This document shows, one piece after another, positions 457 through 5,258 of a stretch of DNA of 64,000 nucleotides; within the stretch, counting starts at the first letter, position 1; each line of letters begins with the position of its first letter. The notes beneath the pieces were generated by a model, which did not search any database, was not told the origin of the DNA, and saw only the letters and a list, made by a program, of their open reading frames with translations. This DNA is from Haliea sp. E1-2-M8 (GTDB lineage: Bacteria > Pseudomonadota > Gammaproteobacteria > Pseudomonadales > Halieaceae): assembly GCF_030649675.1 (NCBI RefSeq), contig NZ_JAUTDR010000015.1, positions 39,029 to 103,028 of the forward strand. Reading direction: 5' to 3'. The translations under genes were made by a program, and so were the position numbers.

Positions 457-1197
457 TCAGGCCTTGAGAAACGCGAGTATCCAGCGCCCGATGCGCTCGG
501 TGTCCGGGATTTCTCCCAGGGATGCCACGCCGGCGGCGTAAGTGGGCTCGCCGATAATCTCGCGGCGAAATTCCATGATCTCGCGTGAGTAGGCGGGCAC
601 GAATTCCGGGTGCCCCTGAAAGGTAAGTATGTGCTCACCAATCTGCACGACCGCGTTTTCACAGAACTCACTGCTCGCGAGCACCTCCGCACCCGGTGCG
701 TTTTCAACTACCTGGTCCTGGTGGCTCACCAGGATGGCGAACTCGGCTTCACCCTGGTCGTGCCAGTGAGGCCGGCGCGAGAAGTGGTGCCGGTGCAGCC
801 CCACGCCCCAGCCTTTCGAGGATTTTGCAGTCTCGCCACCCAGGGCATGGGCTACCAACTGGTGGCCAAAGCAGATCCCGACCAGCTTCTTGTTGCGCCG
901 GTCGAGTTCGCGCACGAATTCCATCAGGGTCGCGATCCAGGGCTTGTCGTCGTAGACACTGCTCTTGCTGCCGGTCATCAGGTAGGCATCGACCTCGTCG
1001 ATGTCCTGCGGGTACTCGCCCTGCTCCACATCGTACACGGCGAACTCCAGGGACCGGTCCAGCTGACCCAGCAGGGCGACGAACATATCCGGGTACTCGC
1101 CATAATCCGGCACCCATTCCGGCCGTACCGTGTCAGTCTTGAGAATACCCAGTTTCACCAATAGCCCCCGGTTTCGTTCCAGATCGAAAGACAGCAT
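457..1197 (-). CDS. Class I glutamine amidotransferase-like protein
   Basis: A 246-residue cytoplasmic protein with a single class I glutamine amidotransferase domain. The nucleophile elbow is seen as GICFGHQL with the catalytic Cys at about residue 109, and the His of the triad in FQGHPEF near the C-terminus. Stand-alone members of this family (YfeJ, GMP-synthase-like GATase) have no assigned partner synthase here, so the acceptor is unknown. The frame is open upstream to 1341, but homologous sequence begins at the ATG at 1197. An alternative TTG at 1215 lies 11 bases after a GGAGG and cannot be excluded. It is divergent from the PAP2 gene. Confidence 0.8.
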   Translation of the reverse strand: MLSFDLERNRGLLVKLGILKTDTVRPEWVPDYGEYPDMFVALLGQLDRSLEFAVYDVEQGEYPQDIDEVDAYLMTGSKSSVYDDKPWIATLMEFVRELDRRNKKLVGICFGHQLVAHALGGETAKSSKGWGVGLHRHHFSRRPHWHDQGEAEFAILVSHQDQVVENAPGAEVLASSEFCENAVVQIGEHILTFQGHPEFVPAYSREIMEFRREIIGEPTYAAGVASLGEIPDTERIGRWILAFLKA

Positions 1198-1258: not shown

Positions 1259-1298
1259 TTGTCATGAAACTGACACGGTTCCGTCATGTTTCTGCCAT
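1259..1298 (+). promoter_or_regulatory. Candidate double Pho box
   Basis: Four seven-base elements TTGTCAT, CTGACAC, CCGTCAT and CTGCCAT start at 1259, 1270, 1281 and 1292, exactly 11 bp apart with four-base spacers. This is the architecture of PhoB binding sites (consensus half-site CTGTCAT, 11-bp period). A weak minus-10-like CAGAAT follows at 1309-1314, 10 bp after the last element, the spacing used at PhoB-activated promoters. It points toward the PAP2 phosphatase and glycosyltransferase genes. The match is by eye only. Confidence 0.6.
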
Positions 1299-1321
1299 GC
1301 AAGCTCCGCAGAATGGGCACC

Positions 1322-1849
1322 ATGAAGATGCTCCTTGCCATCCACAGGCTCGACCTTCAACTGCTGGCCCGCATATTCTCCCAGGGCGAGCGGCGGATGG
1401 TACGCCCCCTGGCGCGGGCACTCTCCCGCTCTGGCGACGGCTACCTGCACCTGCTGGTGCCGCTGCTCCTGTTGCTGCTGGCGGTCGATGGCGCCACCCT
1501 CTTTGCCGGCCTGCTGGCGCTGGCCCTGCTGCTGGAGCGCGGGCTGTACTGGAGCCTGAAGAACAGCCTGAAGCGGCGCCGGCCGCAGGAGGCGGTGCCG
1601 GGTTTCCGCAGCCTGGTCACCGCCGCCGATCAGTTCAGCTTCCCTTCCGGGCACAGCTCCGCTGCCTTCCTGCTGGCGACGGCCCTCGCCGTGGTCTACG
1701 GCGGCCCGGTCATCGCCATGTTCCTGTGGGCCAGCGGCGTCGCCCTGTCGCGGATACTGCTGGGCGTGCACTTCCCCGGTGACACCGTGGCCGGCGCGCT
1801 CATGGGCAGCAGCATCGCCCTGCTCTGTGCCGGCCTGTTGGGCCTGTAG
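1322..1849 (+). CDS. PAP2-family membrane phosphatase
   Basis: A 175-residue membrane protein of the type 2 phosphatidic acid phosphatase (PAP2) family. All three signature motifs are intact: K80-x6-R87-P88, PSGH at 108-111 and SR-x5-H-x3-D at 143-154 with catalytic H111 and H150. Hydrophobic segments lie at about 43-75, 116-138 and 155-175. Likely substrates are lipid phosphates such as phosphatidate or undecaprenyl diphosphate, hydrolysed at the membrane. The chosen ATG at 1322 follows the Pho-box-like region; ATGs at 1313 and 1328 are also possible, and the leader would be very short. Its stop abuts the start of the following glycosyltransferase, so the two are surely co-transcribed. Confidence 0.85.
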   Translation: MKMLLAIHRLDLQLLARIFSQGERRMVRPLARALSRSGDGYLHLLVPLLLLLLAVDGATLFAGLLALALLLERGLYWSLKNSLKRRRPQEAVPGFRSLVTAADQFSFPSGHSSAAFLLATALAVVYGGPVIAMFLWASGVALSRILLGVHFPGDTVAGALMGSSIALLCAGLLGL

Positions 1850-2986
1850 ATGAGGATACTCTACGGGGTTCAGGCCACCGGCAACGGCCATATCAGCCGC
1901 GCCCGGGCGATGGCGGAAGCCTTGAGCGAGCACGCAGTCGACGTCACCTGGCTGTTTTCCGGCCGCGAGCGCAGCCAGCTGTTCGATATGGCGCCCTTTG
2001 GCGACTTTCTACACCGTCGGGGCCTGACCTTCGTCACCCAGGGCGGTTCGGTGCGCCACTGGCAAACGCTGCGAGAGAACCACCTGCCGCAGTTCCTGCG
2101 CGATGTCAGGGCGCTGCCGCTGGCGGGCTTTGACCTCGTGGTCACTGATTTCGAGCCGGTAACTGCCTGGGCGGGCCGTCGCGCCGGGGTACCGACCATC
2201 GGCATCGGCCACCAGTATGCTTTCGGCCCCGCTACCCCGCTGGCAGGCGATCACTGGCTGGCGCGGCAGATCATGCGCCGCTTTGCGCCCGTGGAACGGC
2301 CCGTGGGGCTACACTGGCACCCCTACAGCGACGATGTCCTGCCGCCAATTCTGGACCTGCCGGATTGCGCGGGTGAGGCCCGTAACCACGTCCTGGTGTA
2401 TCTACCCTTCGAGGACCAGGTGGCGGTCAGCGCCCTGCTGCAACAGTTTCCCGCGACCAGCTTCCGGCTCTACGGGCCCGGGCTGAGCATTGGCGAGGAA
2501 AGCAACGTCAGCCTGCGACCCACCAGCGTCGCAACCTTCAAGCGCGACCTCGCCAGCTGCTCCGGGGTTATCTGCAACAGCGGTTTCGAATTGATCAGCG
2601 AGTGTCTGCAATGGCACAAGCCGGTTCTCACCAAGCCCCTGGCCGGGCAGGTGGAGCAGCTCTCCAATGCCCGCGCCCTGGGGGAACTGGGCCATGCCAC
2701 GATCGTGAACCGCCTGGACCGGGACTCGCTCGAGCCTTGGCTGCTGCGGAGACCGGCACCGCCGCTGCTGCGCTACCCGGATGTGGCCGCCGCCCTGGCG
2801 GGCTGGCTGGCCGCCGGCGCCTGCAGTGAACTTGCGACCCTGCAACACCAACTGTGGCGGGACACTGCGCGGGGGTTCCCAGTGAACACCTGCACGCCCG
2901 CCCTGCCAACCCGGTTGTCGACCACCCCACTCTGGCGTCCGGTCCCGCAGCGGCCCGAGTTGGGCAAACTGGCCAGCTTGGGGTAG
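1850..2986 (+). CDS. MJ1255/VC2487-type glycosyltransferase
   Basis: This 378-residue protein has the GT-B look of the MJ1255/VC2487 glycosyltransferase group: a glycine-rich N-terminal loop (GVQATGNGHISRA) near residue 6 and, in the C-terminal half, a donor-site-like segment (VICNSGFELISECL, about 240-254) followed by KPVLTKPL. The family is related to UDP-sugar transferases such as MurG and diacylglycerol glucosyltransferases. The ATG immediately follows the PAP2 stop (TAG-ATG), so translation is coupled. Together with the PAP2 phosphatase and the Pho box this could make a glycolipid from diacylglycerol when phosphate is short; that substrate is an inference. Confidence 0.75.
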   Translation: MRILYGVQATGNGHISRARAMAEALSEHAVDVTWLFSGRERSQLFDMAPFGDFLHRRGLTFVTQGGSVRHWQTLRENHLPQFLRDVRALPLAGFDLVVTDFEPVTAWAGRRAGVPTIGIGHQYAFGPATPLAGDHWLARQIMRRFAPVERPVGLHWHPYSDDVLPPILDLPDCAGEARNHVLVYLPFEDQVAVSALLQQFPATSFRLYGPGLSIGEESNVSLRPTSVATFKRDLASCSGVICNSGFELISECLQWHKPVLTKPLAGQVEQLSNARALGELGHATIVNRLDRDSLEPWLLRRPAPPLLRYPDVAAALAGWLAAGACSELATLQHQLWRDTARGFPVNTCTPALPTRLSTTPLWRPVPQRPELGKLASLG

Positions 2987-3002: not shown

Positions 3003-5258
3003 GTGGAGGCCGTCCGCTTGCTATCCCTCGTTTTACTGAGTCTGCTCGCCGCCGGCGCCCAGGCCGAACCATTCGTTGGCACCGAGCGCTGTATCGACTG
3101 CCATCAGGCTGAGCACAGCCTGTGGCGGGACTCGCACCACGATCTGGCCATGCAGGCACCCGCGGAAGCTACGGTACTCGGCGACTTCAACGGGGCGACG
3201 TTCAACCACCGCGGGGCAACTACCACCTTTTCCCGGGACGGCGACAATTTTATTGTCCGCACTGCCGGCGAGGACGGCAGCCTGCAGGACTTTCCGGTGC
3301 GCTACGTGTTCGGGGTCGAACCTCTGCAACAGTACCTGCTGCCGCTGTCTCGTGGCCGCTTGCAGGCCTTCGACATCGCCTGGGATACCCGGCCCGCGGA
3401 GGCGGGTGGCCAGCGCTGGTTTCATCTCAACCCGGAAGAGGTGAGCGACCACAGCGACCCCCTGCACTGGACCGGCCCCTACATGAACTGGAATACCCGC
3501 TGCGCCGAGTGCCACAGCACCAACCTGGAAAAACGCCATGACGCCGACAGCCGCAGCTTTGACACCCGGTTCAGTGAGGTCGACGTCGGCTGCGAGGCCT
3601 GCCACGGCCCCGGCGAGCGGCACCTGCAATTGGTGCAGGAAGACCGCGCCGGCGCAGAGCCCAACAGCGGATTCCCCACCGCGCTGGCGCAGCGGGGTGA
3701 CTGGGTCTTCAGCGAACAGGCCGCCATCGCCCAACGCACGGCACCGCTCAAGTCCAACGCCCAGATCGACGGCTGCGGCCGCTGCCACTCCCGGCGCGGC
3801 AACCTGGGTACCTATCACTACGGCAAACCCCTGCTGGACACCCACCGGCTGGCCCTGCCCGAGGAGCCGCTGTACTACCACGATGGGCAGATCCGCGACG
3901 AAGTCTTCGTCCACGGTTCCTTTATCCAGAGCCGCATGCATCAGGCCGGCGTGGTCTGCAGCAACTGCCATGAACCCCACAGCCTGCAGCTGCGGGCGCC
4001 GGGCAACGGGGTCTGCGCCCAGTGCCACAAGGCGGAAGTCTACGCACAGCCGGAGCACCATCATCACGCACCGGACTCCGCCGGCGCCGACTGCGCCAAC
4101 TGCCACATGCCGGCAACGACCTACATGGTGGTCGATCCCCGTCGGGATCACAGCATGCGCATCCCGCGGCCGGACCTCAGCGTGGTGATGGGTGTACCCA
4201 ACGCCTGCAACCAGTGCCACACGGACCGGGACGCCCAGTGGGCGCTGGATGCGACCCGCGCCTGGGGTGTGCGCTTCAGTGCCACCGCCGATCACCCGGC
4301 CCGCGCCCTGCAGCAGCTGGCGGCGGGCAACCGCTCCGCCGTGCCACGCTTGCAGGACCTGGTCCGGAACTCCGACGCCGCACCGGTGATGCGGGCCACC
4401 GCGCTGGCGGCGATCGGGCGTGCCGGTGAGCAGCCCCCCACTGACGTTCTTGTTGGCTTGCTACAGGGGTCCGACCCACTGCTGCGTCTGGGGGCCGTGC
4501 AAAGTCTGGAGGGGGTGCCGCTGGGCCGCCGGTATCAAATACTGCAACCCCTCATCACCGACAGCGTAACCAGCGTGCGCATGGCCGTGGCCGAGGCGCT
4601 GGCCCCGGTGCCGCTGGCTCAGCTGAACGAGGGAGCGGAACCCCTGCGGACGCTGTTTGCGGAGTACGTCGCGATCCAGGGGCAACACGCGGACATGCCC
4701 GGTGTGCAATTACAGCTTGGCTTGTTCCTGCTGAATCGCGGCGACCTGCCCGCGGCCGAGCGGGCTTACCGGGAGGCGTTGCACCTGAACCCGCAGCTGC
4801 TGCCGGGGCGCCTGAACCTGGCGGACCTGCTGCGCAGCATGCAGCGGGACGATGAGGCCCGAGAGCAATTGCAGGCGGCGCTGGCCGCGGCCCCGGACAG
4901 CGGCGCGGCCCTGCATGCCATGGGGCTGCTGGAAACGCGCACAGGCAACCGGGAACAGGGCCTTGCCTTGCTGCAGCGAGCCGCGGAGCTGGAGCAGCAG
5001 GGGGTGCGCCACCGCTATGTCTATGCCATCGCCCTGCACGACAGCGGCGAGCCGCGGGCCGCGCTCAGCCAGCTGCAGGCCGTGCAGCGGGCCACTCCCG
5101 GGGATCCAGGGGTACTGTTGGCACTGGTGAACTACAGCGAGGAACTCGGGGAGATGGAGCGGGCCCTGCACTGGGCCCGCGAACTGCTGCAGACGGCGCC
5201 GGAAAACCCTGCCTACCAGGCGCTACAGCGTCGGCTGGCCAGGGGCGGCGCCCGCTGA
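3003..5258 (+). CDS. Octaheme c-type cytochrome with HEAT-like and TPR repeats
   Basis: A 751-residue secreted protein with a signal peptide (residues 1-21, hydrophobic LLSLVLLSLLAAG then AQA). Eight CxxCH heme motifs follow, from CIDCH at residue 30 through CAECH, CEACH, CGRCH, CSNCH, CAQCH and CANCH to CNQCH near residue 400. The region around 440-540 looks like HEAT-type helices and the last 200 residues are tetratricopeptide repeats (LNPQLLPGRLNLADLL and similar). It is a periplasmic electron-transfer or redox scaffold protein whose partner is unknown. The GTG at 3003 places the signal peptide correctly. It lies 16 bases after the glycosyltransferase gene and is convergent with yceI. Confidence 0.85.
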   Translation: MEAVRLLSLVLLSLLAAGAQAEPFVGTERCIDCHQAEHSLWRDSHHDLAMQAPAEATVLGDFNGATFNHRGATTTFSRDGDNFIVRTAGEDGSLQDFPVRYVFGVEPLQQYLLPLSRGRLQAFDIAWDTRPAEAGGQRWFHLNPEEVSDHSDPLHWTGPYMNWNTRCAECHSTNLEKRHDADSRSFDTRFSEVDVGCEACHGPGERHLQLVQEDRAGAEPNSGFPTALAQRGDWVFSEQAAIAQRTAPLKSNAQIDGCGRCHSRRGNLGTYHYGKPLLDTHRLALPEEPLYYHDGQIRDEVFVHGSFIQSRMHQAGVVCSNCHEPHSLQLRAPGNGVCAQCHKAEVYAQPEHHHHAPDSAGADCANCHMPATTYMVVDPRRDHSMRIPRPDLSVVMGVPNACNQCHTDRDAQWALDATRAWGVRFSATADHPARALQQLAAGNRSAVPRLQDLVRNSDAAPVMRATALAAIGRAGEQPPTDVLVGLLQGSDPLLRLGAVQSLEGVPLGRRYQILQPLITDSVTSVRMAVAEALAPVPLAQLNEGAEPLRTLFAEYVAIQGQHADMPGVQLQLGLFLLNRGDLPAAERAYREALHLNPQLLPGRLNLADLLRSMQRDDEAREQLQAALAAAPDSGAALHAMGLLETRTGNREQGLALLQRAAELEQQGVRHRYVYAIALHDSGEPRAALSQLQAVQRATPGDPGVLLALVNYSEELGEMERALHWARELLQTAPENPAYQALQRRLARGGAR

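Follow-up and report, generated by a model that had tools for sequence, protein, structure and literature searches.

A 64,000-nucleotide stretch of the genome of Haliea sp. E1-2-M8 (family Halieaceae; contig NZ_JAUTDR010000015.1, positions 39,029 to 103,028 of the forward strand; hereafter the window) carries, all on its forward strand, a predicted Pho box and promoter at 1259-1314, a gene for a PAP2-superfamily membrane phosphatase of 175 amino acids at 1322-1849, and a gene for a glycosyltransferase (GT) of the MJ1255/VC2487 family, a GT-B-type protein of 378 amino acids, at 1850-2986. A first-pass annotation of the same DNA had described four CTGTCAT-like elements with an exact 11-bp period just before the PAP2 gene, a PAP2 stop codon abutting the GT start, and a GT of the MJ1255/VC2487 type. 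These descriptions hold: the elements lie at 1259-1302 and agree with CTGTCAT at 23 of 28 positions, the stop codon TAG (1847-1849) is followed directly by the ATG at 1850, and the GT passes the TIGR00661 model with 211.3 bits against a cut-off of 195.9. We propose herein that the two genes form a PhoB-activated operon that replaces phospholipid by glycolipid, by a route to glyco-diacylglycerol that is independent of PlcP, and we give this reading a probability of roughly 0.6.

The box was read from the sequence as unit 1, TTGTCATGAAA (1259-1269, 6/7 matches to CTGTCAT), unit 2, CTGACACGGTT (1270-1280, 5/7), unit 3, CCGTCATGTTT (1281-1291, 6/7), and unit 4, CTGCCATGCAA (1292-1302, 6/7), the last of which would replace a -35 element. 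No other four-unit site of period 11 on either strand of the window scores as high, the best that does not overlap it reaching 17/28, and none of 1660 random 260-bp segments from related loci reached a score of 23. A two-unit Pho consensus allowing up to three mismatches found 225 matches in the 4.8-Mb genome versus 200 for a reversed control, and was rejected as a genome-wide detector for this lack of selectivity; the strength of the box therefore lies in its four units in register. A weight matrix, the check that the first-pass annotation had suggested for the box region, was built from 58 PAP2-upstream sites outside the genus (out of 66 scoring at least 17; the window site was excluded). 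It gave 42.0 bits to 1259-1302, versus 2.8 bits at most for window sites clear of the box; the values in between (7.4, 4.6, and 3.0 bits) all belong to sites that overlap it. Because the training sites were picked by score, the box columns of this matrix are selected, while its -10 columns are not.

The first-pass annotation had also named loss of the 11-bp repeat in orthologues as a finding that would refute its reading, and the repeat came through this test. The 103 loci that have a PAP2 homologue yielded 83 non-identical upstream regions of at least 150 bp, identical upstreams having been collapsed before these counts and before matrix training. The best four-unit score averaged 18.34 at period 11, versus 13.53-14.00 at nine other periods between 7 and 16, and a score of at least 18 was reached by 52/83 upstreams at period 11, versus at most 1/83 at any other period. 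On the opposite strand at period 11, the mean was 14.72, with 3/83 upstreams at 18 or more; such scores occurred in 1.2% of the 1660 random segments of PAP2-GT loci. On these comparative grounds, the pair is very likely controlled by PhoB.

The promoter geometry points the same way. The predicted -10 hexamer, CAGAAT (1309-1314), starts 10 nt past the seventh base of unit 4, which is the spacing in Escherichia coli phoA, whose hexamer we read as TATAGT from the phoA sequence. In the 58 sites outside the genus, the hexamer at this distance from the fourth 7-mer takes the form TAnnnT, in which the A carries 1.66 bits and the final T 1.29 bits, so that these columns are informative although they had no role in site selection. 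In 28/66 sites, only 6 or 7 nt separate the hexamer from the PAP2 start codon, a gap that predicts a leaderless or nearly leaderless mRNA. Such messages are predicted in Halieaceae, including the window (1309-1322), and in several Colwellia and Thalassotalea relatives. At five other loci (L036, L038, L042, L046, and L047; L and G numbers denote our loci and genomes), the hexamer lies about 19-22 nt from the start, which is preceded by a Shine-Dalgarno-like GAGGAT or AGGAG.

The longest open reading frame (ORF) of the PAP2 gene opens at 1286, within the box, and the start common to the orthologues is 1322. The protein matches PF01569 (E value 3.1e-20, 72.7 bits, cut-off 27.2) and contains the PAP2 motifs KX6RP, PSGH, and SRX5HX3D; in 40 aligned sequences, K80, R87, S109-G110-H111, R144, H150, and D154 are invariant, and P88 and S143 nearly so. 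Its predicted structure has a mean local confidence score (pLDDT) of 92.0, and the closest solved fold is Aquifex LpxE (6ebu; template-modelling (TM) scores 0.78/0.82), with a Bacillus phosphatidylglycerophosphate (PGP) phosphatase also among the relatives. LpxE 6ebu also came first in a profile search of solved structures (E 1.3e-20), and the NCBIfam LpxE model matches the protein weakly (E 0.0066; 16.2 bits, below a cut-off of 177, in a model that may miss some LpxE proteins). Thus, as in LpxE and PgpB lipid phosphatases, a PAP2 fold with intact catalytic motifs is present; unlike them, the protein scores under the NCBIfam cut-offs, and its gene is paired with a GT gene and, elsewhere, with genes for phosphorus-free lipids.

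This likeness to LpxE keeps alive the main rival to our reading, in which the pair would save the phosphate of lipopolysaccharide: the PAP2 protein would be a lipid A phosphatase of the LpxE kind, and the GT, together with the putative UDP-glucose dehydrogenase Ugd (UDP, uridine diphosphate), would put a sugar or uronic acid on lipid A or core in the phosphate's place. Replacement of a lipid A phosphate by uronic acid does occur in some bacteria. Nevertheless, LpxE acts at the periplasmic face of the membrane, whereas a GT-B enzyme using a UDP-sugar is expected in the cytosol (an expectation for the class and not a prediction from this sequence), and diacylglycerol can cross the membrane, whereas lipid A needs MsbA. 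We consider this explanation unlikely, and the gene neighbourhoods described below also speak against it. The other NCBIfam matches of the PAP2 protein, to the undecaprenyl-diphosphatase SepP (E 3.5e-12) and to PgpB (E 9.2e-11), are all far under cut-off; they would fit a second alternative, in which the protein dephosphorylates undecaprenyl pyrophosphate or PGP and the GT makes a polyprenyl-linked sugar or an exopolysaccharide under phosphate stress.

The predicted structure of the GT (pLDDT 88.5) resembles, at a TM score of about 0.5, MurG and GT-B transferases whose donors are UDP- or TDP-sugars. MurG, whose substrate is a polyprenyl lipid and which so lends something to that second alternative, is also the nearest by sequence among proteins of known structure, with a weak match (E 0.006) in the C-terminal half of the GT. 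A GT-B-like fold and this partial similarity are what the protein has in common with MurG and other GT-B transferases; it differs from them in that its family matches at E 0.01 are limited to PF13528 and TIGR00661. Glycosylation of diacylglycerol is its proposed role.

A pattern search gave at least 591 stretches, of which at least 570 encode a GT relative; the best 80 of these at least 570 are our named loci. They include Halieaceae, Thalassotalea, Colwellia, Psychromonas, Spongiibacteraceae, Microbulbifer, Salinivibrio, and methanotrophs. In 73/80, the 700 bp 5' of the GT gene contain a gene for a PAP2 homologue on the same strand. In the other seven (L048, L052, L054, L057, L059, L062, and L068), none was found within that distance; L059 lacks a 5' flank. 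Within the flanking sequence covered, PlcP homologues occur in 16/80 named loci, and the ornithine-lipid enzyme OlsF in 11/80. In a Colwellia locus (L039), plcP, olsF, PAP2, and GT genes follow one another on one strand (the PlcP frame is short; OlsF scores 856 bits, cut-off 620). In Luminiphilus (L017), the order is PAP2-GT-Ugd-DgkA, with PlcP and OlsF next on the other strand, and in three Methylovulum loci (L066, L070, and L078) a PlcP homologue adjoins the PAP2-GT pair. Five of the PlcP homologues are 40-49% identical over 241-278 amino acids to one Sinorhizobium meliloti gene, which adjoins genes for an acyl-homoserine-lactone synthase and a LuxR-type regulator and which we take to be SMc00171, the characterised PlcP. 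Spongiibacteraceae PlcP homologues have four-unit boxes of their own, with 22 and 23/28 at L042 and L044 and 19-20 at L036, L038, L046, and L047.

In two beta-proteobacterial loci where PAP2 was not found (L048 and L068, the latter from Nitrosomonas), genes for a PlcP homologue and for a patatin-type phospholipase lie 5' of the same type of GT gene, and a diacylglycerol-kinase-type gene lies 3' of it (patatin and kinase were family-scanned in L068 only). This arrangement is the best hint that both kinds of phosphatase feed diacylglycerol to the GT, and since PlcP belongs to a diacylglycerol-making family, it counts against the lipid A explanation. The recurrence of OlsF and PlcP as neighbours likewise tells against a polyprenyl or exopolysaccharide role. 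Ugd also serves exopolysaccharides, but no polysaccharide cluster was recognised by eye beside the pair at 25 loci, where most neighbours were not family-scanned. We regard that role as quite unlikely.

Co-occurrence was compared in the family. With E 1e-3 as the upper limit, 65/140 genomes have a GT match, one of them very weak, and 64 were used; several loci from whole genomes lie on the same contigs as named loci (for example, L017 = G080, L002 = G023, L004 = G017). Thresholds were set by hand, and the lists and completeness values were compiled by hand. The GT match of G109 (E 9.7e-4) was dropped. So were PlcP matches whose E value exceeded about 1e-30, among them a fragment at a contig edge in G005 (59% identity, E 2.6e-10), and Ugd matches whose identity did not exceed about 44%, together with partial ones in G092 and G107; the OlsF set comprised 51 proteins over the cut-off and four partial or split matches (G017, G053, G069, and G076). 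Among 78 good genomes, GT and OlsF were both present in 37, GT alone in 7, OlsF alone in 3, and neither in 31 (p 1.3e-11). The corresponding numbers were 24, 20, 1, and 33 for GT and PlcP (p 4e-7), and 29, 15, 10, and 24 for GT and Ugd of the source-genome type (p 2.7e-3).

The association with OlsF, at least as strong as that with PlcP, would also suit a third alternative, in which both genes belong to the Pho regulon with separate roles: the PAP2 protein would recover phosphate from lipid phosphates, and the GT would glycosylate another phosphorus-free lipid, for example ornithine lipid. A glycosylated ornithine lipid would not need the PAP2 enzyme, and the adjacency of PAP2 and GT in 73 of the 80 loci points instead to one pathway. 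Separate roles therefore appear quite improbable.

As to Ugd, its match begins 12-14 bp past the end of the GT match in four Halieaceae genomes (G068, G080, G090, and G101; the ugd start of G068 was extrapolated from a partial match, and the GT of G101 is cut by a contig end), all of which hold PlcP and OlsF beside the GT on the same contig. A strict link between GT and Ugd was rejected, since this arrangement was seen in those four genomes only and co-occurrence is moderate. In the source genome, no PlcP homologue was found, nor was one found in seven congeners; the best matches are 25-28% identical. The best one in the source genome is LpxH-like (E 9.4e-4), and none of that genome's seven Metallophos proteins matches PlcP at 1e-6. 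Elsewhere in it (L163:2338-3893), a Metallophos protein, not a PlcP homologue, is encoded next to a lipid kinase of the DAGK_cat family (its top NCBIfam hit, MamU, is under cut-off), near what by eye is an alternative-oxidase-like ORF.

The source genome (4.84 Mb, 98.8% complete) encodes a PhoB above cut-off (332.6 bits versus 296.2), and around phoB lie genes that by eye are phoR, pstS, pstC, pstA, pstB, and phoU. The matrix was applied to chosen stretches of this genome, many picked for box-like patterns, so that the following scores do not form a genome-wide ranking. A Porin_5 gene adjoining phoU is preceded by a site of 38.9 bits. Sites of 19.4 bits before phoB and 11.6 bits before pstS have two units and are much weaker than the window site; a two-unit Pho-type site also precedes ppk. 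A four-unit box of 26.9 bits before gspC (L156:2132-2175) suggests a phosphate-controlled type II secretion system, and a lipoprotein-like ORF of 200 amino acids has a box-like site of 18.9 bits (L161:3501-3544) roughly 400 bp ahead of it. At L215:4043-4166, back-to-back boxes face a small ORF-olsF operon (20.7 bits) and a gene that by eye is TonB-receptor-like (29.4 bits). There is no box directly before olsF; the weak one is located farther upstream, at about 335 bp, ahead of the small ORF. This ORF, of about 65 amino acids, stands between the box and olsF (L215, 2003-3751, minus strand), and an ORF of 74 amino acids occupies the same place in L017; it may encode a conserved small protein of ornithine-lipid operons.

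The gene that we call ugd passes TIGR03026, a nucleotide sugar dehydrogenase model (455 bits, cut-off 189.8), and is preceded by a site of 18.6 bits. Upstream of the gene, the site CTGTATTATTTCTGTCATCTTT, followed 10 nt on by TACAGT or TATAGT, is conserved in Haliea and near relatives; in 30 ugd upstreams, the three-unit score averaged 15.23 at period 11, versus 11.47-12.47 at six other periods. The box is little seen in L180, L188, L189, L192, and L198. A ugd gene linked to a Pho box suggests that at least part of the product carries glucuronic acid, as an anionic substitute for phosphatidylglycerol.

Several observations weigh against the glycolipid reading. Thirty-one of the 83 PAP2 upstreams score below 18 at period 11, and shuffling gave p values of at least 0.1 at seven loci (L012, L017, L027, L043, L064, L077, and L110) and of 0.05-0.1 at ten more. 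The olsF-side box of the source genome is weak (16/28). Enrichment at period 11 is modest in 31 plcP upstreams (mean 15.16 versus 13.45-13.74) and in 33 olsF upstreams (15.97 versus 13.64-14.18), with means of 15.0-16.0 versus 13.2-14.2 over both sets, perhaps because many of these genes do not come first in their units. Among proteins of solved structure, the one nearest to the PAP2 protein is a lipid A phosphatase, not a phosphatidate phosphatase, and since the GT shows generic GT-B similarity only, its donor and acceptor cannot be read from the fold. The Ugd protein has UDP-glucose 6-dehydrogenases as its next-best models but scores under their cut-offs (TuaD, 437.6 bits, cut-off 700), its co-occurrence with the GT is the weaker one, and its gene is not beside the pair in the source genus. 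Moreover, 7 of the 44 good genomes with a GT have no OlsF, and the Fisher tests used for co-occurrence ignore phylogeny.

Lipid remodelling by PlcP and the glycosyltransferase Agt is known in Sinorhizobium, roseobacters, SAR11, and Pseudomonas aeruginosa, and has been described together with its Pho boxes (PMC4796936). In P. aeruginosa (PA3219-PA3218/PA0842), Agt1 uses UDP-glucose and Agt2 UDP-glucuronate, and both glucosyl- and glucuronosyl-diacylglycerol are made (PMC8528852). The unit in the window resembles that system in joining, under a Pho box, an enzyme of lipid-dephosphorylating type and a glycosyltransferase, and in occurring with ornithine lipids; it differs in that the phosphatase is a PAP2 membrane enzyme, where the known system has a metallophosphoesterase phospholipase C, and in that the GT belongs to TIGR00661/PF13528. 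No clear Agt orthologue was found in the source genome with a single Agt-like query, a GT adjoining a PlcP homologue on a Sphingomonas plasmid (best match 34% identity, E 4.7e-20).

Another putative diacylglycerol glycosyltransferase lies beside plcP in Methylobacter tundripaludum and Crenothrix, and near it in some type Ia methanotrophs; it was compared with a Bacillus subtilis enzyme, and in the available part of that paper neither its family nor PAP2 is mentioned (PMC9239053). It may belong to the same family as the GT in the window, to judge from the Methylovulum loci. VC2487 itself is mentioned once, among putative products of genes downstream of ChiS chromatin immunoprecipitation peaks, and is there called a putative glycosyltransferase (PMC11856585). 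No description of a Pho-controlled PAP2-TIGR00661 pair was found in the parts available of the open-licence PubMed Central literature, including PMC5193443, PMC6445935, PMC13157583, and PMC11828411.

Taken together, the box, the promoter geometry, the conservation of the pair, and its association with OlsF, PlcP, and Ugd are supported by comparison of sequences, as is the apparent lack of a PlcP homologue in the genus; PhoB binding, both reactions, diacylglycerol as the acceptor, and UDP-glucuronate as the sugar donor are what we infer from them. The first-pass suggestion of lipid remodelling in phosphate starvation thus gains support from the co-location of OlsF, PlcP, and Ugd at other loci, from the Pho-type box at ugd, and from the failure to find a PlcP homologue in the source genome. 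In the PlcP-independent route, phosphorylated PhoB would, at low phosphate, bind the four 11-bp units and recruit sigma-70 polymerase to the -10 at 1309-1314, with transcription expected to start at or adjoining the PAP2 start codon. The PAP2 enzyme would then dephosphorylate phosphatidate, or a related lipid phosphate, to diacylglycerol, saving phosphate, and the GT-B enzyme would move a sugar from a UDP-sugar onto the diacylglycerol, while OlsF would supply the other phosphorus-free lipid. A more specific version is put forward tentatively: PhoB may drive PAP2, the TIGR00661 GT, and UDP-glucose dehydrogenase, the last either by a Pho box of its own or as part of the operon, and marine Halieaceae would in this way make glucuronosyl-diacylglycerol when stressed for phosphate; PAP2-GT, in part on leaderless messages, may serve many other aquatic gamma-proteobacteria.

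Two further genes flank the pair. A gene for a multihaem cytochrome c/HEAT/TPR protein (3003-5258, plus strand) begins 16 bp 3' of the GT gene and may be read through, with no sign that it takes part in the lipid pathway. Its homologues follow the GT in 20/81 loci (L001-L081), mostly Halieaceae. On the other side, a class-I glutamine amidotransferase gene (457-1197, minus strand) diverges from a common intergenic region; it is outside the unit, and the box faces the other way. An inverted repeat, AGGTCCATTATTGTAGCATTCG / CGAATGCTACAATAATGGACCT, with arms of 22 bases and a 2-base spacer, lies ahead of the window (L113:1-46), about 220 bp from its start.

PlcP has been used as a tracer of bacterial lipid remodelling in marine metagenomes (PMC4796936) and proposed as a biomarker of phosphorus stress in methanotrophs (PMC9239053). 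Genomes in which no PlcP homologue is found, yet which hold a Pho-controlled phosphatase-GT pair, would be missed by such PlcP-based surveys. The present analysis also ties ugd of Halieaceae to the phosphate regulon and offers a testable role for the MJ1255/VC2487 family; if the glucuronosyl-diacylglycerol version is true, this would be the first function for that family.

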